From: a virus
Length of the DNA stretch: 26,763 bases
IMG/VR virus record: IMGVR_UViG_3300047316_000025
Coordinates: 1-26,763 of that record
Reading direction: 5' to 3' (one strand)
Below, in pieces: positions 3,068 to 16,920 of the stretch. Under the pieces are notes generated by a model, which ran no database searches, had not been told where the DNA came from, and saw nothing but the letters and a program-made list of their open reading frames with translations. Position numbers and translations under genes: made by a program. Position 1 is the first letter of the stretch; each line of letters starts with the position of its first letter.

Positions 3068-3294
3068 CCCAAGATGCCACGTCAGTCATGCTGGCCGAGC
3101 TTGCCATTAGCCTGCGAAAGATGCTATACTGTGTAGATTGGTTAGCGGATCGTCACGACATCGATCTTGCTGAACCAACTCCCGACAAGAGCCGACAACT
3201 AGACCTTCCGCTGTTCCTGACAGACGGGGGGCAATCCGCGAGAAGTAACTTCCATAATGGAGGACCAAGTGACGACCCAGGTAGAAACCATTGA
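3064..3294 (+). CDS. Hypothetical 76-aa protein
   Basis: Unrecognised protein starting MTQDATSVMLAELA. Its start overlaps the previous stop by four bases (ATGA), a strong sign of translational coupling. The first ~35 residues are predicted helical, the rest is polar with a Pro-rich linker. The last ~18 codons overlap the next gene and contain a copy of the palindrome (3241), read here as RSNF; that tail therefore looks shaped by the DNA site and the overlap rather than by a conserved fold. No function can be given. Confidence 0.5.
   Translation: MTQDATSVMLAELAISLRKMLYCVDWLADRHDIDLAEPTPDKSRQLDLPLFLTDGGQSARSNFHNGGPSDDPGRNH
3241..3253. repeat. Dispersed palindrome, one mismatch
   Basis: AGAAGTAACTTCC, just before the ATG at 3257 and inside the overlapping end of the upstream gene (read RSNF). 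Confidence 0.8.
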
Positions 3295-3640
3295 GGACAT
3301 AATCGAAGCGGCTAACCATCTCGGTTGGTATTTGGTTACGCTTTGTCAGTATGGTCTGAAAGGCGATATCGTCTATCGTGCGACGTTCCAGCATCGTACC
3401 CTGAACGGTGCGACCGAGAACGTCTTCAGCGAATACGAAGATGCGACCGATGCGTACACCGCGATGTTGAACGCGTTTGAGCGGTGCAAATTCATGGCTA
3501 AGAAACAAGAACCGGTGAAGCTGATTAAGGCACCAGTGGAACCGGCCATACCACCGAAGTTGGAGAAGTCGCTCGCCAAGGCGATCGACGCCAATTGGTT
3601 CGCGAGGAAAACTGTAGGTGCGTCCCGAAGAGCGCGTTGA
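3257..3640 (+). CDS. Hypothetical 127-aa protein
   Basis: Unrecognised protein. The N-terminal ~80 residues form an alternating helix/strand pattern (TIEDIIEAANHLGWYLVTLCQY, split here as a helix then a strand; later NVFSEYEDATDAYTAMLNAF), possibly a small dsRBD-like or ferredoxin-like alpha/beta fold, though I do not recognise a family. The C-terminus is Lys/Pro-rich and basic, ending ASRRAR, and could bind nucleic acid. Start choice is ambiguous: ATG at 3257 has AGAAG from the palindrome copy at 3241 as a possible ribosome-binding site, whereas GTG at 3269 has a better GGAGG at 3259-3263 with 5-base spacing. It overlaps both neighbours. Confidence 0.6.
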   Translation: MEDQVTTQVETIEDIIEAANHLGWYLVTLCQYGLKGDIVYRATFQHRTLNGATENVFSEYEDATDAYTAMLNAFERCKFMAKKQEPVKLIKAPVEPAIPPKLEKSLAKAIDANWFARKTVGASRRAR

Positions 3641-3941
3641 GAGTACGATTTGCAGAGAGGCTGTGCGGGCCGGATGGAAGACATATAAACTGTCTTTCAT
3701 CGGGACGCGCGGTGCGCCTGATCGTATATTCGGTCGGAACCGCAGGACTGTGCTGATCGAGTTCAAACGCCCCGGTAAAGGACTGACGCGCCAGCAATTG
3801 AAACGACGCAGTGAACTCATCGAAGACTTCGGCTTCGAAGTGTACTGGGCGGATAATCTGGACGATGCTCGTGAAATCCTTGATCTGAAGGGGAATGAAG
3901 ATGACGAGGAGTATATACAGCATCCCGAGCGTGATGGATAA
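3618..3941 (+). CDS. VRR-NUC domain nuclease
   Basis: Small stand-alone VRR-NUC (PD-(D/E)xK superfamily) nuclease of 107 aa, close to the usual length of phage versions. The signature is complete: an N-terminal helix with E8, then RGAPDRIF with D35, then LIEFKRPG with E48 and K50, then QQ at 59-60 in the following helix. Phage VRR-NUC proteins are thought to act as structure-specific nucleases in replication or recombination, and they usually lie beside a SNF2 helicase and family A polymerase, as here. Start is the GTG at 3618, overlapping the previous gene by 23 bases; the residues right after it (RPEERVESTI) match the family's usual N-terminus. The C-terminal ~15 residues are acidic. Confidence 0.88.
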   Translation: MRPEERVESTICREAVRAGWKTYKLSFIGTRGAPDRIFGRNRRTVLIEFKRPGKGLTRQQLKRRSELIEDFGFEVYWADNLDDAREILDLKGNEDDEEYIQHPERDG

Positions 3942-4131
3942 GATCGAGTATTTGGACACTGAGGACGAAGACGACTATTCCGACATCCCCAATTGGGACG
4001 GCATGATCGACCAGTGGACCGATCTCGCCATACTGGTCGGCAAGACGTGGTTTCCGATCAGCCAGTTGCGAAGGACAGAAGACGAAGAGATCTATGCCTC
4101 GAATTGGATACTCGAACAGAAAGGATATTAG
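3901..4131 (+). CDS. Hypothetical acidic 76-aa protein
   Basis: Unrecognised protein. I choose the ATG at 3901 because AAGGGG (3888-3893) lies seven bases upstream; an in-frame ATG at 3895 is too close to that site. It overlaps the VRR-NUC gene by 41 bases. Residues ~18-30 are a run of Asp/Glu (DTEDEDDYSD) followed by a Trp-containing alpha/beta segment (WTDLAILVGKTWFPISQL). The acidic surface could mimic DNA or bind the neighbouring nuclease or helicase, but this is inference only. Confidence 0.55.
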   Translation: MTRSIYSIPSVMDKIEYLDTEDEDDYSDIPNWDGMIDQWTDLAILVGKTWFPISQLRRTEDEEIYASNWILEQKGY

Positions 4132-4171
4132 CTGACGACCAAGAACCTTCGTGGTGAGGTCGGAGGGCGGC

Positions 4172-4204
4172 CCTGCGCCCGGTAAGACGAACGCCGGGCG
4201 CAGG
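4172..4204 (+). other. Strong GC hairpin upstream of helicase gene
   Basis: A perfect 11-bp inverted repeat, CCTGCGCCCGG / CCGGGCGCAGG, with an 11-base loop. It lies in the only ~100-base non-coding gap of the replication module (4132-4232). There is no T-tract after it, so it is not a textbook intrinsic terminator; it could protect mRNA, attenuate transcription, or mark the edge of an inserted gene. The rest of the gap holds nothing else I can name. Confidence 0.6.
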
Positions 4205-4232
4205 CGACTGCCTCAACATGAAGGGTAACGAA

Positions 4233-5738
4233 ATGTCCGGAAGTAACTTCCACCAAGAATTGGTTCGACGACGGAACTCTGCCTTTCGATGTTTCAGCCT
4301 GCTGCACGATTATCAGAGTGAACAGGCCATTCCTTTCCTCATGGACAATCCGTTCAGTGCGGCGTTCATGGACATGGGCCTCGGCAAGACGGTTGCGATC
4401 CTGACCGTTCTTCAACGCCTGTTCACGCGCGGGCTCATCCACAAAGTTCTCATCATCGCCCCGTTGCGCGTTGCCGTACAGACGTGGCCGACTGAACTTA
4501 AAGAATGGTCACATACTTGGTGGCTCACGTACACGTTGATCCGCGCTAACGAGCGTCACCCAGGTCTGCTCGACGCCCAGGCAGCGGCACGCAAGGCCAA
4601 TCCACTCGCGTCCAATCACGCCGCTGGTAAAGCCAAGACCGCGCACATCGAATTGCAGCGGCGCGAACTGGCGTCACGCCCGACCATGATCCACATCATC
4701 AATCGGGAAGCCGTCGATTGGCTGGTGAATTTCTACGGCAAGAAATGGCCGTACGACACGGTGATTGTGGATGAAAGCAAGAACTTCGCCGATAAGAATG
4801 CCGCCCGGTGGAAGGCATTGAACAAGGTGCGACCGTTCATGCAGCGGATGCACCTGTTGAGTGGCGTCCCTGCGCCCGAAGGCATCGAAAATTACTTCGC
4901 TCAAATTTATCTGCTCGATCGCGGTGAACGCTTCGGCAGGAGCCTGACGGCGTTTCGTGAGAACTACATGATCCATCAACCGTGGAAGCATCGCTGGATA
5001 CCGCGCGACGGGGCACCGCTTCAGGTCGCCAACAAGATCAAAGACCTCTGTATCGTCATGCGGGAAGAGGACTTCCTGAAGCGAGACAAGGCCATCGTCA
5101 TCGAGCGTCCGATCCTGCTGGAGCCGGAAGAACTGCGGCTGTACGCCAAGTTTGAGCGCGACATGATCCTCGATCTGCCCGAGGTCGAGATCGAAGCCAA
5201 GAGCGGCGGATCGCTGGCCGGGAAGTTACTTCAAATGGCTAGCGGCGCGGTCTACGATGAGACCGGCAAGTGGCACCACATCCACGACCACAAACTGGAG
5301 GAACTGAAAGAACTTGTGGCTGAAGCGCAGGGATCACCGCTGCTTGTGGCGTATTGGCACCGGTCTTCGCTGGAACGTCTGCAAAAGACGTTTCCGAAAG
5401 CTGTTAAGATGGATCGTGAGGGAAGATGCGTGAAGCCGTGGAACGAGGGCAAAATAGCGATGCTGCTCGTGCATCCGCGCAGTGCCGGTCATGGCCTCAA
5501 CATGCAGCACGGTCCCGGCCATATCTTAATTTGGTTTGACAACCCTATGCCTTTGGACGATTATTTGCAGATGAACAAGCGCCTCGATAGGCCAGGACAG
5601 AAGAGGATTGTTCGTGTTTACCATTTGGTTGCACACGATACTGTTGATGCTACTGTGGTTCCTGTTCTGCGCGGTAAGGATGACGCGCAGGATGCCGTGA
5701 AAAAATACATCCGTGACCTCCGAGGAAAATGGAAGTGA
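4233..5738 (+). CDS. SNF2-family DEAD/DEAH-like helicase
   Basis: Superfamily 2 ATPase, 501 aa, with both RecA-like domains. Walker A is MGLGKT (K52), the DEAH-box equivalent is VDESKN (D180-E181), motif III appears as LLSGVPAP, and the C-terminal domain ends with QMNKRLDRPGQ, the arginine-finger motif VI of SNF2 enzymes. Phage members of this group probably remodel DNA during replication or recombination beside the polymerase and VRR-NUC. The start at 4233 is preferred over the in-frame ATG at 4218 because GAAGGG (4220-4225) sits seven bases before it. A perfect palindrome copy (4239) forms codons 3-6 (GSNF), a one-mismatch copy lies at 5221 (GKLLQ) and a third perfect copy spans the stop codon at 5731. 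Confidence 0.92.
   Translation: MSGSNFHQELVRRRNSAFRCFSLLHDYQSEQAIPFLMDNPFSAAFMDMGLGKTVAILTVLQRLFTRGLIHKVLIIAPLRVAVQTWPTELKEWSHTWWLTYTLIRANERHPGLLDAQAAARKANPLASNHAAGKAKTAHIELQRRELASRPTMIHIINREAVDWLVNFYGKKWPYDTVIVDESKNFADKNAARWKALNKVRPFMQRMHLLSGVPAPEGIENYFAQIYLLDRGERFGRSLTAFRENYMIHQPWKHRWIPRDGAPLQVANKIKDLCIVMREEDFLKRDKAIVIERPILLEPEELRLYAKFERDMILDLPEVEIEAKSGGSLAGKLLQMASGAVYDETGKWHHIHDHKLEELKELVAEAQGSPLLVAYWHRSSLERLQKTFPKAVKMDREGRCVKPWNEGKIAMLLVHPRSAGHGLNMQHGPGHILIWFDNPMPLDDYLQMNKRLDRPGQKRIVRVYHLVAHDTVDATVVPVLRGKDDAQDAVKKYIRDLRGKWK
4239..4251. repeat. Dispersed palindrome, perfect copy (centre A)
   Basis: GGAAGTAACTTCC forming codons 3-6 (GSNF) of the SNF2 helicase, six bases after its ATG. Confidence 0.95.
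5221..5233. repeat. Dispersed palindrome, one mismatch
   Basis: GGAAGTTACTTCA in the helicase gene, read GKLLQ; the last base departs from the consensus. Confidence 0.8.
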
Positions 5739-9219: not shown

Positions 9220-9483
9220 ATGTCCGGCACCACTCCTGCTCCCGTTCCCGTTCCTGACCCCGATCCGTGTCAGCTATTGAGAGATGCCGACAAAGCCTGG
9301 TTCCAATTGAACGTAGGCGGCGCGGTACGTATGGTCCGCGATCAGAACGGCGAACAGGTCGAATACTCATCCGCCAATCGGGCCGGTCTGCTGAATATGA
9401 TCTACGCTTTGCAGGAGTTATGCCCGACTTACAAGTCGCTTGCGATTTCGGCCGGGCCGAAACCGATGAAATATTTTTACTGA
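9220..9483 (+). CDS. Head-tail joining protein gpW
   Basis: gpW-family protein of 87 aa, which in lambda binds under the portal to complete the DNA-filled head. The diagnostic stretch is present: LLRDADKAWFQL, then VRMVRDQNGEQVEYSSANR and AGLLNMIYALQ, i.e. helix, beta hairpin, helix. The N-terminus has a Pro/Val/Asp-rich linker absent from lambda W (68 aa), explaining the longer length. The start at 9220 is set by GGAGG at 9206-9210; a longer in-frame version from 9127 would have no such site and would translate through the palindrome at 9142. The stop overlaps the portal start (TGATG). Confidence 0.88.
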   Translation: MSGTTPAPVPVPDPDPCQLLRDADKAWFQLNVGGAVRMVRDQNGEQVEYSSANRAGLLNMIYALQELCPTYKSLAISAGPKPMKYFY

Positions 9484-11111
9484 TGACGGTTACATCCGTC
9501 ATCTTGGATAGCGGCGCGCTAGAAGGCGCGGACAAGTTCAGTCGTGAGACGGCGCTGTGGTCGCCGTCTATGGGTTCGCCAGATCAGGTCATCAACAGCG
9601 CGAAGCCGATGGCGGATGCCAGAGGTCGCGATACCGTCCGCAACAGCGGCATGGCCTACGGCGCGGTGGCGCTGCACAAGGACAGCATCGTCGGAGCGCA
9701 ATACCGGCTGAACGCCACGCCGCATTGGCGGTTCCTATCGAGCTATTCCAAGGGTTTCGATGAAACCTGGGCCGATGAGTTCCAACAGATCGTCGAGGCC
9801 CGTTTCAGTCTGATCGCCGACAGTGAGATGTGCTGGTTGGACGCTCAAGGCGTCAACACCATGACCGGCCTCATCCGGCTGGCTGTGGGCGTGTTCTTAA
9901 TTACCGGCGAAGTCACCGGCTCTATCGAATGGTTACGTCAGCCCAATCGACCCATCAACACTGCGTTTCAGATGGTGAACAGCGATAGGCTGTCGAACCC
10001 CAATGGCGTCTCTGACACACGGTTCTTGCGACGCGGCATCGAGCGTGACGCCAACGGAAGAGCCCTCGCCTATAACTTCCGCATGGGCGATCTCTACGAT
10101 GTCTACCCGGACAACCTCGCCTATATCTGGCGGCGGGTTCCAGCCGAGAAGCCGTGGGGCCGCAAGCAGGTTATCCACATCATCGAGCAAGGCTTGATGG
10201 ATCAGACTCGTGGCATATCCGACATGGTTGCCACGCTGAAGAACATGCGTATGACGAAGAAGTTCGCTGAAGTGACGTTGCAGAACGCCGTCATCAACGC
10301 GACTTATGCCGCCGCGATCGAGTCGGAACTACCGAACGACATGATCGCCGCGACGCTCGGCCAGACAGGAGGCGATACCAATGCCGGATTGATGGGCATG
10401 TATCGCTCCTACATGGGGGCCTTGAGCGAGTATCTCGACGCCGCGAACAACATTCGCATTGACGGCGCGATGATCCCCCACCTTTTCCCCGGAACTAAAC
10501 TCAACATGCAACCGGCCAAGACGACCGGCGGGATCGGCACGTCTTTCGAGGAGAGCCTGTTGCGTCATACGGCGGCGTCGCTCGGCCTGTCGTACGAAGA
10601 GTTCTCCCGCGATTTCAGCAAGACGAACTATTCCAGCGGCAAGGCCGCGATGGGCGTCTCGCAGAAGTTTATGGCTTCACGTAAAAAGCATGTAGCTGAT
10701 CGGCTTGCGTCTGATCTCTATTCGCTGGTGCTGGAAGAAGAGATGGCCAACGGTAACGTGCCGTTGCCTCGCGGTATGACGCGCGACGTTTTCTACCGGG
10801 ACAACGGACTGTCCAAAGAAGCCATTACCCGATGCGTGTGGATCGGCTCCGGATCAGGACAGGTCGATGAGTTGAAAGAAACCCAGGCCGCGATGCTTCG
10901 GATCGCCGGGGGTTTATCCACCTACGCGATCGAGGGTGCGCGGCTCGGCATTGACTGGCGAGAACTCTTCGAGCAGTGCGCTCGTGAGAAAGCCTTGATG
11001 GACAAATACGGCTTGGTGTTCGATACCACCACGACCAAGCCTACCGGCGACAATCCGTTAAGTCACGGCGATCAAGGCGACAACACCGCGCAGCAGCAAC
11101 AAGCAGCATGA
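9483..11111 (+). CDS. Portal protein (lambda gpB-like)
   Basis: Portal vertex protein, 542 aa, forming the ring through which DNA is packaged and to which the tail connects. It matches the lambda-type portal family: an N-terminal GMAYGAVALHKDSIVGAQYR-like helix region, a WADEFQQIVEARF stem-like segment, HIIEQGLMDQTRGIS and the LSYEEFSRDFSKTNYSSGK motif near residues 365-385. Length is close to lambda gpB (533 aa). ATG 9483 overlaps the gpW stop; an upstream in-frame start at 9267 inside gpW is rejected. No palindrome lies inside the gene, but one follows its stop codon immediately. Confidence 0.93.
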   Translation: MTVTSVILDSGALEGADKFSRETALWSPSMGSPDQVINSAKPMADARGRDTVRNSGMAYGAVALHKDSIVGAQYRLNATPHWRFLSSYSKGFDETWADEFQQIVEARFSLIADSEMCWLDAQGVNTMTGLIRLAVGVFLITGEVTGSIEWLRQPNRPINTAFQMVNSDRLSNPNGVSDTRFLRRGIERDANGRALAYNFRMGDLYDVYPDNLAYIWRRVPAEKPWGRKQVIHIIEQGLMDQTRGISDMVATLKNMRMTKKFAEVTLQNAVINATYAAAIESELPNDMIAATLGQTGGDTNAGLMGMYRSYMGALSEYLDAANNIRIDGAMIPHLFPGTKLNMQPAKTTGGIGTSFEESLLRHTAASLGLSYEEFSRDFSKTNYSSGKAAMGVSQKFMASRKKHVADRLASDLYSLVLEEEMANGNVPLPRGMTRDVFYRDNGLSKEAITRCVWIGSGSGQVDELKETQAAMLRIAGGLSTYAIEGARLGIDWRELFEQCAREKALMDKYGLVFDTTTTKPTGDNPLSHGDQGDNTAQQQQAA

Positions 11112-11124
11112 GGAAGTAACTTCC
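11112..11124. repeat. Dispersed palindrome, perfect copy, gene junction
   Basis: GGAAGTAACTTCC directly after the portal TGA (11109-11111) and ending one base before ATG 11126. Its left arm acts as the only visible ribosome-binding site of the next gene. Confidence 0.95.
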
Positions 11125-11125
11125 G

Positions 11126-11446
11126 ATGGATGATCCTCTCGACGCACGGTTGCCGATCATGTATGGCGGAACGAGCATTGCGCTTCGCGACACCTACACT
11201 GCTGCCGATACCGTTTGGGTTCCGCTTGAGTACGGCGGCATTCGCTGTAAGGCCAATGCTCTCGGTGCGCTCCCGGCTCACGCTCGCATTCCGTTGCTCT
11301 ACGGCGGGCAATCGTTGTCTCCTGCCGACGTTACGGCAGCCCAAGCCGGTGGATTGGACCTTCTATCGTTAGAGGACGGCTCCGGTTCGTGGGAGTGGGA
11401 AGACGGCAATCGAATTGAATGGCCCGGTGAGGCGGGAGTACCGTAA
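11126..11446 (+). CDS. Hypothetical 106-aa head-module protein with internal repeat
   Basis: Unrecognised protein between portal and fibre-like genes. It contains a short internal duplication, RLPIMYGGTSI near residue 8 and RIPLLYGGQSL near residue 56, each followed by a similar-length stretch, suggesting two copies of a small beta module. The C-terminus is Trp/Glu/Gly-rich (SWEWEDGN). Its ribosome-binding site appears to be the AGGAAG formed by the left arm of the palindrome (11111-11117), nine bases before ATG 11126. The stop overlaps the next start (TAATG). Position suggests a small virion or head-assembly component. Confidence 0.65.
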   Translation: MDDPLDARLPIMYGGTSIALRDTYTAADTVWVPLEYGGIRCKANALGALPAHARIPLLYGGQSLSPADVTAAQAGGLDLLSLEDGSGSWEWEDGNRIEWPGEAGVP

Positions 11447-13197
11447 TGGCAAACGTCTCTATCCTAAAGGCCAATACGGTCGTCAATCCCGACGGGACGT
11501 TTTACGTTCCGCTCGCTAAGGTTGCCGATAAAACGCCGTGGAAGGCCAACTTACCGCTGCCAGCCGATACCGTGCCGCTGATGAATGCTGATGAACCGTC
11601 TGCCGGTAGCAGCATGACCTGGGCGCGAGCGGATCACGTCCATCCGGCCAATACGGCGATGCTCGCGACGATGAAAGATTATGTCGATGAGCAAAATACT
11701 TTACTACAGGAACAGATTTCATCTCTCGCGCAAAATCTCCGGTTCGTCGGTCAGACGAACGTAGTATCGGATAGCACAAAGTTCACTACGGGATCGGGCA
11801 TTACGCCAAACCCCGGAGTGCTGCCACCAGCTTCGACGGCATTTCTCGGATTTTATACCATCGTCATCGCGGCGGGACAGCCGCCAGCCGGTTCGAATAT
11901 CCCGGCAGGCGACTACGCGATGCACGATTGGATCGTGTGCGACGGCACGACATGGCAGCGTCTTGATGTGGGAGCCACGGCGTCCACCGCGTCTACGACT
12001 GCTGTCATGCCAGCAATCGGCGGCATGGACGATGTTCAAGAAGTTCTTGAGCATCTCTACGATACGGTACCGATGGCGTCCGAAACGGTGCCCTCGATGG
12101 ATGGTATCGCATCGGTTGGCGTCAGTACGGAATGGTCACACGGGGATCACGTTCACCCAGTAGATACCAGTCGTTATGCCGCGAGTAATCCGGCGGGGTA
12201 TGTTGATCCTGCCGGGGCGGCTGCGGCCGCGCCGGTTCAGTCAGTGGCAGCCAGGACCGGCGCGGTTGTTCTGACGCACGCGGACATCACTGATTGGGCC
12301 ACGGCTCTGAACCCCTATTACCCGGTGACTAACCCGGCGAATTATGTCGATGCAGCCGGTGCGAGAACGGCGGCTCCGGTGCAGTCCGTGGCGGCGCGCA
12401 TCGGCGCGATCACGCTAACTCACGCGGACATCACTGATTGGGTCGCGACACTACAGCCGTACGCGCTGACCACGGCGATCCCCGCTCCGTCCTCAAGTAC
12501 GCCAACGGCAGACGGCACCGCTGCTGCGGGAACGGCGTTGACTTGGGCGAGAGCCGACCACATTCACCCGACTGACGTGTCTCGCTACGCTGCTAGCAAT
12601 CCCAGCGGTTTCCAAACGGCAGCGCAAGTGGCGGCGGCGGTACCGGCAGCCGCGACTACGCCACCGGTCATGGACGGTACCGCCGCCGCAGGAACCGGTA
12701 CGACATGGGCCAGAGCCGACCACAAACATCCGGTCGATACTTCTCGCGCTCCGGTTATGGGTGTTACTGACGCCAGCAATGCCTTGGCTGGTCAGATTGG
12801 CGAATATATCGTTTCGGCCAATCAGACCGGTGTACAATTGACCACGGCGGTAGGTCTGACGGTCGCCAGCATCAATCTCACGCCCGGATGTTACGAGGCG
12901 TGGGGTCTGGTGGATTACTCGCTCGATGCCAGTAAAAGCCCGACTATGATCGCCGCTGCCATTAGTGGGGTCAACAATACGTTGCCCACGGATACGGCCA
13001 TCTATACCGGCATCGGCAACATGATGCTTCTCAACCTGTCTGGCCTGACCGCTGGACAGCGCCAAGTCTTGATGACCGGCCAGTGCCGCGTCAACACCAG
13101 TACGCCGCTTACGCTGTATGTAGTGGCAAATGCGGTTTGGACTGGCGGTGGAACTCTGTTGACCAAGGGGTATATCTGCGCGAGGCGTGTCAGATGA
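11446..13197 (+). CDS. Fibre-like head protein with DHxHP repeats
   Basis: A 583-aa protein built like phage fibre shafts. Four copies of the W-[AS]-x-x-DH-x-HP motif occur at residues 59-67, 230-238, 367-375 and 421-429, most followed by DTSRYAASNP-like linkers; two further near-identical modules (PVQSVAARTGAVVLTHAD and its copy, each leading into ITDW) are 144 bases apart. In known tail fibres such HxH-containing beta strands trimerise and can bind metal. The last ~150 residues look like a globular beta-rich head domain. GGGAG at 11434-11438 supports the ATG. Its place between portal and protease, not at the tail end, suggests a head fibre or capsid-bound appendage rather than a tail fibre; this is inference. 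Confidence 0.75.
   Translation: MANVSILKANTVVNPDGTFYVPLAKVADKTPWKANLPLPADTVPLMNADEPSAGSSMTWARADHVHPANTAMLATMKDYVDEQNTLLQEQISSLAQNLRFVGQTNVVSDSTKFTTGSGITPNPGVLPPASTAFLGFYTIVIAAGQPPAGSNIPAGDYAMHDWIVCDGTTWQRLDVGATASTASTTAVMPAIGGMDDVQEVLEHLYDTVPMASETVPSMDGIASVGVSTEWSHGDHVHPVDTSRYAASNPAGYVDPAGAAAAAPVQSVAARTGAVVLTHADITDWATALNPYYPVTNPANYVDAAGARTAAPVQSVAARIGAITLTHADITDWVATLQPYALTTAIPAPSSSTPTADGTAAAGTALTWARADHIHPTDVSRYAASNPSGFQTAAQVAAAVPAAATTPPVMDGTAAAGTGTTWARADHKHPVDTSRAPVMGVTDASNALAGQIGEYIVSANQTGVQLTTAVGLTVASINLTPGCYEAWGLVDYSLDASKSPTMIAAAISGVNNTLPTDTAIYTGIGNMMLLNLSGLTAGQRQVLMTGQCRVNTSTPLTLYVVANAVWTGGGTLLTKGYICARRVR
12226..12442 (+). repeat. Two fibre-shaft modules, 144-bp period
   Basis: Tandem imperfect repeat within the fibre-like gene. 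The 22-base core at 12277-12298 recurs exactly at 12421-12442, 144 bases (48 codons) apart, and the surrounding protein modules (about residues 262-285 and 309-333) differ at only a few positions. This is a normal way for fibre shafts to lengthen or shorten by recombination. Confidence 0.8.
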
Positions 13198-13361
13198 ACC
13201 TTATCATTGTTGTAATCATTTTGATCTTGCTCTTCGGAGTTGGCGGCGGCGGGTATTATGGGTCGCAATATGGATGGGGTACGCCGCATTATATTGGCGG
13301 TGGTTTCGGTCTTATTGTGCTTATCCTCGTCATCTTCTTTCTCTTCGGTGGTTTACGATGA
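13194..13361 (+). CDS. Tiny two-helix membrane protein, DUF3309-like
   Basis: A 55-aa protein made of a hydrophobic helix (NLIIVVIILILLFG, residues 2-15), a Gly/Tyr/Trp-rich turn (YYGSQYGWGTPHYIGGG) and a second helix (LIVLILVIFFLFGG, ~39-52). This layout and the GWG turn resemble DUF3309 proteins. It is fitted between two head genes with four-base overlaps on both sides (ATGA at 13194; its TGA overlaps ATG 13358), and GAGG at 13182-13185 is eight bases upstream. Role unknown: membrane-associated head-assembly factor, superinfection exclusion, or holin-like are all possible. Confidence 0.75.
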   Translation: MNLIIVVIILILLFGVGGGGYYGSQYGWGTPHYIGGGFGLIVLILVIFFLFGGLR

Positions 13362-14776
13362 GCAGGTACCAGGCACGCGCTGTGTTGAACAAGCTGGTCG
13401 GTCGTCCAGCCCTTGTCGCGCAATCGTACGCCGGTCAGAGCTTATCGGTCGGATCGGAAGCTACTTCCAGTTCAATGTTGGCGGATATTCACGATCTGTC
13501 CAATGCTGTGGTGGCGGACGAAGCCGCCAAGGATGGCGAGAGACGGGTGTTACTGGCCTCGTGCTATGGCTGTGATGACTACGATCCGGACGACGCCAAG
13601 CCCTTTGTTTACTACAACGGCTTCGCGATCATTCCAATCCACGGGCTGCTCATCAATCGGTTTTCGTGGTCGTGGTCGTGGGTGACCGGCTACAACTTCA
13701 TTCGTAGTCAGCTTTCTGCCGCGATGGCCGATCCCGACGTTCAGTCGATCGTCTACGACGTGAACAGCTACGGCGGCATGGTCATGGGCTGTGAAGAAAC
13801 AGCCGATATGATCTACGAGTCAAACGCCGCTCAAGGCGGTAAAACATCCATTGCGATCATCGATGCGAACTGCTATTCAGCGGCGTATATGTTGGCGTCT
13901 CAATGCGATCACGTTGCGGTCACGCCTTCTGGCGGCGCGGGTAGCATCGGCGTTCTGATGATGCACTGTGACGTGTCGAAGATGTTGGACGAAGCTGGAA
14001 TTGCGATCACGTTTATCCACGCCGGGGCACACAAGGTTGACGGCAACTCTTTCGAACCGCTGAGTGCCGAGGTCAGAGCCGATCTACAGGCCGAGGTTGA
14101 TACCACGTACGATATGTTCGTCGCCAAGGTTGTGCGTGGGCGTTCACTAAGCGACGAAGCAGTGCGTGGTACCGAGGCCCGCTCTTACGGTGCGGAGGAA
14201 GCCCTGACTATCGGGCTTGTCGATGCTGTTGAAAACCCTTCGGACGCGGTGGAGGCTTACTTCTCGGATGCCCCCGACGCCGGACATGACGATGACGATG
14301 AACCTGAAAGCGAGGAAAAAATGGTACTTAAAACCGCGACCGGCGCGGCTGCTCAAGCCGACCCGGAAGTTACTTCCGCCGCCGCTATTGAAGCCGCTGC
14401 GACTGCCGCCGCTGCGTCTGCCCGCACGGCGGAACGTGAGCGTGTGAAAGGCATCCAGGGACACGCCGAAGCGACCGGACGTGAGGCGCTTGCCGCGCAT
14501 CTCGCGATGAATACCGATCTCGACGTGGCAACCGCGGCGGGTATCCTGGCGGCTTCTCCGAAGGCTGTCGCGGCTCCGGCAGCGGACCCTGCTCCCGTCA
14601 AGGAGGACAGCGAGTTCAAGAAGGCGATGGATGCCGCCAAGCACCCGAACCTCGGCGCGAGTGCTACCAGCGGCGATGGCGAGGACGACTCCGAAGACGC
14701 GAAGGATCGCAAACGCGCGCAGTCCATCCTGGCGTTGCAGCACGGTCCGAAACGTCAGGACAAAGCCGCAGCGTAA
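13358..14776 (+). CDS. S49-family capsid protease with C-terminal scaffold
   Basis: Lambda gpC-like maturation protease fused to its scaffold, 472 aa. The ClpP/S49 fold shows IIPIHGLL, YDVNSYGG, then the nucleophile in NCYSAAYMLAS (S174) and the general-base lysine in HAGAHKVDGNSF (K226), so it appears active. After ~residue 305 the chain becomes Ala/Glu-rich and helical, typical of a capsid scaffold. ATG 13358 overlaps the previous stop; a longer reading upstream would run through the membrane-protein gene in another frame and is rejected. A one-mismatch palindrome copy (13456, read EATS) lies near the start and a perfect one (14365, EVTS) in the scaffold part. Confidence 0.92.
   Translation: MSRYQARAVLNKLVGRPALVAQSYAGQSLSVGSEATSSSMLADIHDLSNAVVADEAAKDGERRVLLASCYGCDDYDPDDAKPFVYYNGFAIIPIHGLLINRFSWSWSWVTGYNFIRSQLSAAMADPDVQSIVYDVNSYGGMVMGCEETADMIYESNAAQGGKTSIAIIDANCYSAAYMLASQCDHVAVTPSGGAGSIGVLMMHCDVSKMLDEAGIAITFIHAGAHKVDGNSFEPLSAEVRADLQAEVDTTYDMFVAKVVRGRSLSDEAVRGTEARSYGAEEALTIGLVDAVENPSDAVEAYFSDAPDAGHDDDDEPESEEKMVLKTATGAAAQADPEVTSAAAIEAAATAAAASARTAERERVKGIQGHAEATGREALAAHLAMNTDLDVATAAGILAASPKAVAAPAADPAPVKEDSEFKKAMDAAKHPNLGASATSGDGEDDSEDAKDRKRAQSILALQHGPKRQDKAAA
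13456..13468. repeat. Dispersed palindrome, one mismatch
   Basis: GGAAGCTACTTCC near the N-terminus of the protease gene, read EATS, in a poorly conserved leader. Confidence 0.8.
14321..14776 (+). CDS. Nested capsid scaffold protein (Nu3-like)
   Basis: In-frame internal gene encoding the last 151 residues of the protease ORF, as in lambda C/Nu3. An ATG at 14321 is preceded by GAGG at 14312-14315 with a five-base A spacer, a much better ribosome-binding site than chance would give inside a gene. The product is almost all helix (AAAIEAAATAAAASARTAER and similar), ending in a basic segment (HGPKRQDKAAA) that would contact the capsid shell, as scaffolds do. It would be made in excess over the protease and digested after assembly. 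The call is by analogy and by the internal start signal. Confidence 0.7.
   Translation: MVLKTATGAAAQADPEVTSAAAIEAAATAAAASARTAERERVKGIQGHAEATGREALAAHLAMNTDLDVATAAGILAASPKAVAAPAADPAPVKEDSEFKKAMDAAKHPNLGASATSGDGEDDSEDAKDRKRAQSILALQHGPKRQDKAAA
14365..14377. repeat. Dispersed palindrome, perfect copy (centre T)
   Basis: GGAAGTTACTTCC 44 bases after the internal scaffold start at 14321, read EVTS. Confidence 0.95.
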
Positions 14777-14803: not shown

Positions 14804-15523
14804 ATGCCGTATCCCAACCTCTTGGCGGCGGGTGTTACCAACGAGGGTACCTTCACGCCGTTTGAGTTGTTCGCGGGCGAGTCTACGATCGTCACCAGTC
14901 AGGGTGTCGTCGGCACGACTTCCGTTCCGCAATTCGTCCCTGTTGTTCGCAATACGGACGGTACCATATCGGCGTGGTCCGATACTTACGCCAGCATGAC
15001 CGGCACGTTTTCCGGTGCGGGAACCGCCAACGATACCATCACGCTTCATGGGGTGGTGTTCACCTTGGTCGCGGCAGCTACAACGGCGAACCAAGTCACG
15101 ATCGGTGGAACCCCGGCTCAGACGGCGGCTAATTTCGCCGCCAAGGCAGATGCGCTTTCGGCCTCAACGCTCATGCACGCTGTCGCCGTTGGTGCCGTAG
15201 TCACGCTTACCGCTATCACTGCGGGTACCGGCGGGAACTCTCTTGCGATTGCGGAAAGCGGCACGTCCTTTTCGTTTACCGGTGGGGCTACGGTCCTTGC
15301 TGGCGGCGCGGCGGGGGCTTCCGGTGTCGCCATCGGCATCTCGGCGCAAGCGGCACCGGTTGGCGGTCACGTCCCATACTTCACGGGTGGGTCGTTCAAC
15401 TGGCTGGCGATTACGTGGCCTGCCTCGGTCACTACGCTGGAGCAGGCCCGTGCGGTGTTTGATCGCACACCGATCTACATCGACAAGATCCTCGGTTCGT
15501 CCGGTCGGATGACTATTCCGTAA
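14804..15523 (+). CDS. Head decoration protein (gpD-like) with inserted domain
   Basis: Capsid-stabilising decoration protein of 239 aa, about twice the length of lambda gpD (110 aa). The gpD fold is split: residues ~28-64 (VVGTTSVPQFVPVV then GTISAWSDTY) match the first half and residues ~170-237 (VAIGISAQAAPVGGHVPYF, SFNWLAITWP, ARAVFDRTPIYI) the second. Between them, about 65-168, lies a Thr/Ala/Gly-rich beta domain (TITLHGVVFTLV, TAGTGGNSLAIAESG) of a type repeated in many phage virion proteins. The insertion falls in the loop after the W-containing strand. AAGGA at 14792-14796 supports the ATG; the gene precedes the major capsid gene as expected. Confidence 0.85.
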   Translation: MPYPNLLAAGVTNEGTFTPFELFAGESTIVTSQGVVGTTSVPQFVPVVRNTDGTISAWSDTYASMTGTFSGAGTANDTITLHGVVFTLVAAATTANQVTIGGTPAQTAANFAAKADALSASTLMHAVAVGAVVTLTAITAGTGGNSLAIAESGTSFSFTGGATVLAGGAAGASGVAIGISAQAAPVGGHVPYFTGGSFNWLAITWPASVTTLEQARAVFDRTPIYIDKILGSSGRMTIP

Positions 15524-15541: not shown

Positions 15542-15712
15542 ATGCCTATCGGGCTTCTGTTCTGGGTGCTTATGGTCATGTGGGTCATTTTCTGGGGGTA
15601 CGGTCGTACGCCCGGTGGACAACCGTATTGGGGTGCCTATAACGGGTGGCTTCTGTTTGTTCTCCTGTTCCTGATCGGTTGGCGCATCTTCGGCTTTGCC
15701 ATCTACAACTGA
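15542..15712 (+). CDS. Second tiny two-helix membrane protein
   Basis: A 56-aa protein: helix one PIGLLFWVLMVMWVIFWGY (residues 2-20), a polar Gly/Pro/Tyr turn (RTPGGQPYWGAYNG), then helix two WLLFVLLFLIGWRIFGFAI (36-54). GGAAGGGG (15528-15535) six bases before the ATG is a strong ribosome-binding site, so it is probably well translated. Similar mini-proteins beginning MPIGLLFW occur in head modules of other phages by my recollection, but their function is not established to me. It is the second such hairpin membrane protein in this head cluster, again just ahead of a major head gene. Confidence 0.75.
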   Translation: MPIGLLFWVLMVMWVIFWGYGRTPGGQPYWGAYNGWLLFVLLFLIGWRIFGFAIYN

Positions 15713-15717
15713 CGCCC

Positions 15718-15730
15718 GGAAGTTACTTCC
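15718..15730. repeat. Dispersed palindrome, perfect copy, intergenic
   Basis: GGAAGTTACTTCC five bases after the small membrane gene's stop, in the capsid gene leader, 11 bases before a weak -35-like element (15742). Confidence 0.95.
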
Positions 15731-15741
15731 TCAACCGCCGT

Positions 15742-15771
15742 TTGCTCACGAGGCGACGGGTCGCTTATCAA
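15742..15771 (+). promoter_or_regulatory. Weak promoter candidate before capsid gene
   Basis: TTGCTC (15742-15747), an 18-base spacer and TATCAA (15766-15771) in the 71-base gap before the major capsid gene. Weak match to consensus. A perfect palindrome copy ends 11 bases upstream of the -35-like element, the same arrangement as before gpW. Confidence 0.2.
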
Positions 15772-15783
15772 GGGAAACACACA

Positions 15784-16920
15784 ATGCGTAACAAGCTGTT
15801 CGCGCCCGCCTCTTTCGTTCCTCGCGTTGCGGCGGGAGACATCGGGCTTTATTCGTCCGCTACGTTGATCGACGTTCTGTACGATCCGGCAAATGCGCCA
15901 GAACTCAATCAATTCTGGATGAAGTTCTTTCCTCGGACGATCAACTTCACGACCGAGAAGATCATGTTCGATGAGATCGACAACAACGAATATCGGTTGG
16001 CACCGTTCGTTGCTCCGAACGTGCAGGGTCGCGTGGTCGCATCGAAAGGTTTTCAGACCCGTTCGTTCAAGCCCGCTTACGTCAAGCCGAAGCATGTTAT
16101 CGATCCGTCGCGGACGATCCCGCGCCGTGCCGGTGAAGCTCCCGGTACGTTCGGCGGCAGTCTGTCGCTGCAACAGAAATTCGACCTCATCATGGCCGAC
16201 AATCTGCGGCGCGAACGTGCCATGATCGAGAACCGGTGGGACTGGATGGCGTGCAAGGCCATCGTGGACGGTTTTGTCACGGTGTCCGGTGAAGACTATC
16301 CGACGACTACCGTGGACTTTGGACGCGACGCGGGCCTTACCACGATACTGACTGGTGCCGCGCTCTGGACGGCATCGACAGCAACACCGATGGCCGACAT
16401 TCAGGCCAAGCGTACCCTGGCGTTCAAGTTGTCCCGCTCTCCGGTCAACACGTTGATCTTCGGCGTTGATGCCTGGACGGCGTTCACGCAGGAAAATCAC
16501 CCCGACGTTCAGACGTTGCTCAACGTTTTGCGTCGTGGCAACGAGTCCGTGTTCAACGGCGCGAACATCAGCGACGGCTCGCCCTACAACTATCAGGGCT
16601 ACATCGCCGGTGCGAACACCGGACGGCTCGATCTCTGGACGTACTCGAACTTCTACGAGAGCGACGGTACGGACGGCAACACGGTGGGCGTCGGGGTTAA
16701 CTACCTTGATCCAACCTATGTCGTGGGTGTCGGCGGCGCGATCAACGGTATCTCCTGCTACGGAGCGATCATGGATCGTCGGGCACAGCTTCAGGCGCTT
16801 TCCATGTTCCCCAAGGTGTGGGATGAGGAAGACCCGAGTGTCACCTATTCGATGACGCAATCGGCTCCGCTCATGGTACCGCTTCGTCCGAACAACACGT
16901 TCCGTATGAAGGTAGCTTGA
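15784..16920 (+). CDS. Major capsid protein (capsid E family)
   Basis: Main shell protein, 378 aa, of the phage capsid protein E (lambda gpE-like, HK97 fold) family; lambda gpE is 341 aa. Recognised by FFPRTINFTTEKIMFDEI, RLAPFVAPNVQGRVV, SFKPAYVKPKHVIDP, the long spine-like helix MIENRWDWMACKAIVDG, and the C-terminal Met/Pro-rich strand ending FRMKVA. The ATG at 15784 is preceded by AAGGGAA; an upstream in-frame extension to 15646 would overlap the small membrane gene and lacks conservation. Preceded by a palindrome and a weak promoter candidate, followed by a terminator-like hairpin, as fits a highly expressed gene. No palindrome occurs inside it. Confidence 0.95.
   Translation: MRNKLFAPASFVPRVAAGDIGLYSSATLIDVLYDPANAPELNQFWMKFFPRTINFTTEKIMFDEIDNNEYRLAPFVAPNVQGRVVASKGFQTRSFKPAYVKPKHVIDPSRTIPRRAGEAPGTFGGSLSLQQKFDLIMADNLRRERAMIENRWDWMACKAIVDGFVTVSGEDYPTTTVDFGRDAGLTTILTGAALWTASTATPMADIQAKRTLAFKLSRSPVNTLIFGVDAWTAFTQENHPDVQTLLNVLRRGNESVFNGANISDGSPYNYQGYIAGANTGRLDLWTYSNFYESDGTDGNTVGVGVNYLDPTYVVGVGGAINGISCYGAIMDRRAQLQALSMFPKVWDEEDPSVTYSMTQSAPLMVPLRPNNTFRMKVA

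Follow-up and report, generated by a model that had tools for sequence, protein, structure and literature searches.

The window, that is, the whole 26.8-kb stretch of viral DNA analysed here, encodes a polymerase, helicase, terminase, head-tail adaptor, portal, fibre region, S49 protease, decoration protein, E-type major capsid protein, neck, tail tube and tape measure; it ends just past the tape measure gene, and the tail-tip region was read from relatives only. The order of portal, protease, decoration, E-type major capsid, neck and tail genes is Casjensviridae-like, and the best matches of the portal among annotated phages are Casjensviridae. The locus of interest, all on the plus strand, reads portal, orf106, fibre, DUF3309 miniprotein and protease. 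The portal ORF (9267–11111; phrog_21, E 3e-118; lambda-type PF05136, E 1.9e-74) shows homology from about codon 72, near 9480. It is followed by orf106 (11126–11446), to which no function is assigned, by the fibre gene (11446–13197), by a gene for a 55-aa DUF3309 membrane miniprotein (13194–13361; PF11752, 26.1 bits against a cut-off of 22.3), whose start overlaps the fibre stop (ATGA), and by a gene for an S49/ClpP-type prohead (head maturation) protease (13358–14776, start corrected; PF01343, E 4.5e-32; phrog_53, E 4e-115). Starts and stops overlap from orf106 through the protease. The most likely start of the protease is 13358, and not 13187 as in the ORF list, since this is where the ATGA overlap lies and where the homologues in the relatives L017 and L003 start. 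The earlier note on this DNA had placed a fibre-type protein inside the head gene cluster, between portal and capsid protease. The first part is borne out, and the position is kept across the lineage; the location between the two genes is also right, but they are not immediate neighbours of the fibre, with orf106 intervening upstream and the DUF3309 gene downstream.

Several neighbouring features deserve description. Orf106 is conserved at 56–77% in fibre-bearing relatives and has a 41–50% homologue in a fibre-less phage, G003 (L019, 11836–12120), without the C-terminal acidic/Trp extension. An acidic/Trp-rich orf106 C-terminus (GSGSWEWEDG...) is present in the fibre-bearing phages, and it might be a fibre-docking tail; the structure model of orf106 (pLDDT 39) is too poor to judge whether this is a pentameric jelly-roll base protein. 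Membrane miniproteins of about 55 aa, in two families (one of them DUF3309), occur in virion gene clusters: in the window at 13194–13361 and at 15542–15712 (plus strand, beginning MPIGLLFWVLM..., with a homologue adjoining the fibre in G001 and L044), in L017 at 13601–13938 and in L044 at 9404–9768. They adjoin the fibre in several phages, in changing order. DUF3309 was rejected as a specific marker of a fibre cassette, since similar miniproteins are found in many phage contigs without an adjoining DHxHP fibre. The decoration protein (14804–15523) has 239 aa, against about 120–135 aa in relatives such as AH2 and L021, and its residues 57–171 match phrog_28344, a family of no assigned function; because of this larger size and partial match it may hold an inserted domain. 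The probable start of the major capsid ORF (15646–16920) is codon 47, near 15784, because the L003 and L017 homologues align from residue 47.

The genome also carries many copies of a 13-bp palindrome, GGAAGTWACTTCC, one of which, at 11112–11124, separates the stop of the portal gene from the start of orf106, as it also does in L003, L017 and L020. With at most one mismatch, 24 were observed in the window against 0.67 expected, and the window holds 19 exact GAAGTNACTTC, spanning 1551 to 26409. The density is about 6–16 per 10 kb across the lineage, including G003 (L003, L017, L019, L020, L034–L036 and L038), and none was found when AH2, UF_RH7 and L021–L023 were searched. In L038 (G003 1–20 kb), seven copies of a one-base-longer variant, GAAGTATACTTC, stand alongside GGAAGTWACTTCC. 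Copies sometimes sit just 5' of start codons and also occur within genes; they look like operator, 'stoperator'-type or partition sites. The fibre gene has none, an absence estimated as not significant at that gene length.

The fibre gene opens with an ATG and encodes 583 aa. Residues 1–70 (11446–11655) comprise a generic fibre start (M.NVSI..) and the first DHxHP motif. They run into a single long predicted helix at residues 70–97 (11653–11736), modelled with low confidence there, which is probably a coiled coil and, if so, would presumably be trimeric. Residues 74–206 (11665–12063) form a conserved domain (FVGQ...DWIVCDGTTW...DVQEVL) that L044 and L045 also encode next to head genes. The shaft, residues 207–444 (12064–12777), consists of DHxHP and SVAAR-GA-LTHAD modules, the number of which differs in the relatives L003, L017 and L020, and the C-terminal tip, residues 446–583 (12781–13194), is predicted to be a TNF/C1q-like jelly roll. 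DHxHP occurs at residues 63, 234, 371 and 425 (n=4), whereas, when the protein sequence was shuffled 20,000 times, at least one appeared in just 23 cases; the SVAARxGA..LTHADITDW module occurs twice, at residues 266 and 314, its two copies 72% identical at the DNA level. Among the PHROGs, phrog_11393 ('tail fiber') matches residues 437–583 (E 1.3e-9) and phrog_2952 ('minor tail protein') a stretch of the shaft. The Pfam search of the fibre gave no match above cut-off; CusF was rejected as a fibre domain, its match being under the family's cut-off, and RSC8 chains were rejected as relatives of the tip, the phmmer matches being low-complexity noise. The product of 11446–13197 is a genuine modular fibre protein, with a conserved anchor, a variable tip of jelly-roll type and a shaft of variable modules. 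That it is a chance ORF or a non-virion protein is extremely improbable: nothing speaks for this except the absence of proteomics, and against it stand an N-terminal part that is 73–80% identical among relatives, significant matches to fibre families and a coherent predicted tip fold.

When the full fibre was modelled as a single chain, only residues 446–583 were confident (a beta jelly roll, pLDDT mostly 70–90), and the shaft and N-terminus were poor. Among the VIA-align matches of the tip that were listed, the BC2L-C N-terminal domain had a Z of 10.5, PLTL 10.3, and exosporium and phage proteins 10.1–10.4; these matches belong to the TNF/C1q type or resemble it, and they include several trimers that bind sugars. 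The BC2L-C N-terminal lectin and PLTL resemble the tip in predicted fold, at a Z of about 10 over 116–120 residues, but they are only about 10% identical, and a common fold is no evidence of the same sugar. The head fibres phi29 gp8.5 and Andhra gp13 are absent from the best 50 structure matches of the tip, which is uninformative. Foldseek against viral models returned proteins of uncultured phages and a Klebsiella phage tail fibre. By sequence, the sole credible solved relative is gp47, the trimeric tail fibre of podophage PhiM1 (PDB 8VBX, E 8.7e-5). This protein and gp19 of Burkholderia phage BcepC6B (PHROG 11393) align with the tip region, BcepC6B being 33% identical across 25% of the query, but both differ in their N-terminal part and, unlike the window fibre, are encoded amid podophage tail genes.

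The portal-fibre-protease arrangement is kept in three relatives, namely L003 (the same sequence as L002 and L004, with L018 a fragment of the same kind), G001 (L017) and G002 (L020), whose terminase, portal, capsid and neck proteins are mostly about 82–94% identical to those of the window. The comparison of gene order proposed in the earlier note thus found the fibre slot conserved. G003 is a sister with a portal 72% identical, orf106 present and the same gene order; no fibre match was found anywhere in its record. In L021–L023 the portal is directly followed by the protease, and in the annotated Casjensviridae in which both genes could be located (AH2, UF_RH7, SS2019XI, MA11, BcepNazgul, FoX4, DanisaurMW and SLP-22) the portal and protease matches lie at most about 140 bp apart. 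Casjensviridae such as AH2, BcepNazgul and UF_RH7 share the order of portal, protease, decoration, capsid and tail genes, with a portal up to 60% identical, but their portal and protease abut, with no fibre, orf106 or DUF3309 gene in between. Since the two genes abut there and in L021–L023, the fibre is, judging from gene order, a lineage-specific insertion. Recent transfer of the fibre was considered on the ground of base composition and rejected, as its GC is about that of its neighbours. A scan of bacterial and archaeal genome contigs with peptide patterns found no relative.

A homologous fibre also occupies the portal-protease slot of the records L043 and L044, which represent a single phage type. 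This type is unrelated to the window phage and differs in its portal and protease families: a PF04860/phrog_2662 portal is followed by two ORFs, the fibre, a pair of membrane miniproteins and a protease of XkdF type whose start is ChaB-like. At the DNA level, only parts of the fibre gene are shared with the window. The L044 portal (3101–5608) is a fusion with a domain of the inorganic-pyrophosphatase type (PF18823). In L045, a 1360-aa (incomplete) fibre that begins with the 74–206 domain is encoded downstream of capsid/connector genes, among them a PF09950 major capsid gene. DHxHP fibres stand directly after a J-like protein in L005 and L092, and the clusters of L046, L062 and L088 are podophage-like and include an Hc3 head-closure protein (L062 by similarity to L046). 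The DHxHP and SVAAR modules, which had been taken as hallmarks of tail fibre shafts, are thus fibre modules but not tail-specific, recurring in siphophage tail-tip and podophage clusters, and alone they do not reveal where on the virion the fibre sits. The view that DHxHP proves a tail fibre was likewise discarded, the motif being seen in many virion contexts.

The two ends of the fibre have different histories. Its N-terminal ~205 residues are 73–80% identical between the window and its relatives. The tip is 52% identical to those of G001 and G002 and 32% to that of L003, yet with the tip of the unrelated L044 it shares 83% identity, although the 74–206 domain of L044 is only 54% identical. 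The N-terminal part tracks the phage lineage and the tip does not, as expected of a swapped receptor-binding tip; a conserved anchor with a divergent tip is the usual signature of such exchange. This pattern bears on one alternative, namely that the fibre is a decoration- or moron-type protein, unessential for adsorption (for example, a display for matrix or particle-particle contact), with a generic adhesive jelly roll as its tip. G003 keeps orf106 and the gene order yet is without the fibre, which is therefore dispensable at the scale of the wider lineage. Nevertheless, a tip that is replaced faster than its anchor and swapped between unrelated phages fits receptor-driven selection better, and we regard this alternative as unlikely.

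A separate tail-fibre module downstream, another thing the earlier note had suggested looking for, is present in G001 and G002, both of which bear the head-cluster fibre; therefore, the latter is additional to the tail-tip module. In both, the region 3' of the tape measure gene encodes a tail assembly protein, one that resembles a baseplate hub, a J-like protein (phrog_1101) and a pair of paralogues of about 500 aa each, and G001 additionally encodes a DUF2793 protein matching 'tail fiber' families and a laminin-G (LamG) lectin-domain protein; the protein-family search was made mainly on G001, with G002 interpreted through parallel ORFs. The position after J in G001 is held by the DUF2793 family protein. 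The fibre itself sits between portal and protease and not directly downstream of a J-like tip protein, as a siphophage tail-tip fibre would. No DHxHP was found in the post-tape-measure tail proteins of G001 and G002, so that their tail clusters are without a DHxHP fibre, and this would suit the most serious rival explanation: that the protein is an ordinary tail (side or tip) fibre, assembled at the tail, whose gene was moved into the head cluster by recombination. Its first 36 residues resemble, weakly but above chance, those of the L092 fibre (4 of 5000 shuffles reach the score), the L005 fibre (44 of 5000) and the L088 podophage fibre (0 of 5000), and with the DHxHP shaft this makes it similar to the post-J fibres of L005 and L092; moreover, its closest solved relative by sequence is a tail fibre and its PHROG matches are annotated as tail. 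These likenesses weaken the case for a head location, as does the occurrence of orf106 in G003 without a fibre. Less easily explained by a displaced tail fibre are the use of the same head-cluster slot by an unrelated phage whose portal and protease belong to other families, the preservation of the overlap-coupled gene order across the lineage, and a post-J position in G001 that is already taken. We grant this explanation an appreciable chance of being right, though well short of an even one.

On balance, we favour the reading that the fibre is a receptor-binding adhesin of the head, portal vertex or neck, with a probability of about 0.55 on comparative sequence evidence. It is encoded among head genes, which supports a head fibre but does not define one, and gene position does not fix virion position. 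What tips the balance is that an unrelated phage (L043/L044) uses the same slot, that the slot with its overlapping start and stop codons is kept in the window, L003, G001 and G002, that the tail-tip module is separate in G001 and G002, that the 74–206 domain of L045 sits downstream of a PF09950 capsid gene, that the tip was exchanged with L044 while the N-terminal part follows the lineage, and that the tip model matches the TNF-like lectins BC2L-C and PLTL. The proposal of a head fibre or portal/neck appendage in the earlier note thus gains from the genomic context and loses from the N-terminal residues, which resemble tail-tip-encoded fibres. We infer a receptor-binding fibre, probably a homotrimer, set in the head or the portal-vertex/neck region. 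Its N-terminal residues ~1–205, which include the predicted coiled coil, would attach to the capsid, the portal or the neck, perhaps via orf106; the repeat shaft of variable length would project outwards and determine reach; and the exchangeable lectin-like TNF/C1q tip would reversibly bind a host surface molecule, most likely a glycan. The phage would in this way have a head-borne grip on its host before or alongside the tail tip.

Such a grip has precedents. Head spikes of RcGTA bind capsule (PMC7296036), Andhra has trimeric head fibres beside the portal (PMC9710869), and the capsid fibres of 7-7-1 bind flagella (PMC12796354). Andhra gp13 and the P68 head fibres resemble the window fibre in their reported N-terminal domain, coiled coil and C-terminal receptor-binding-like domain and in lying beside the portal vertex (PMC9710869), but Andhra is a picovirus in which the capsid-binding N-terminus is solved, and the likeness is one of layout. 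The RcGTA spikes (base Rcc01079, fibre Rcc01080) offer a parallel in their proposed head-borne capsule binding besides a complete tail (PMC7296036), but there the fibre opens with the peptide IALGLGLGL, and one chain of it stands on a base that is a pentamer; an RcGTA-type leucine-glycine repeat peptide was sought at the N-terminus of the window fibre, which reads MANVSILKANTV, and is absent. In 7-7-1, capsid fibres are the first to contact the host and the tail does the rest (PMC12796354), but there the receptor is flagellar, the tail contractile and the fibre protein not identified. A bolder and doubtful idea, which we entertain only tentatively, is that of a mobile head-appendage cassette, made up of a fibre with an exchangeable TNF-lectin-like tip and one or two membrane miniproteins, which would insert between the portal and prohead protease genes of unrelated phages, so that siphophages would have, in addition to the tail tip, a head or portal vertex able to adhere. 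That the capsid may be adhesive through both the fibre and the decoration insert, as the earlier note suggested, is speculation.

Head fibres as such are already known, and the fibre described here is not a proven one. What is new is a tip-swapping, tail-fibre-type protein that is conserved between portal and protease in a Casjensviridae-like lineage and stands in that interval in an unrelated phage as well. Host-range prediction usually seeks receptor-binding proteins in the tail cluster only. If the favoured reading is true, host-range scans restricted to the tail would miss an adsorption determinant encoded in the head cluster, and this lineage would provide, besides RcGTA, Andhra and 7-7-1, a further testable case of host binding at the head or portal vertex, this time in a phage whose tail is long and non-contractile.
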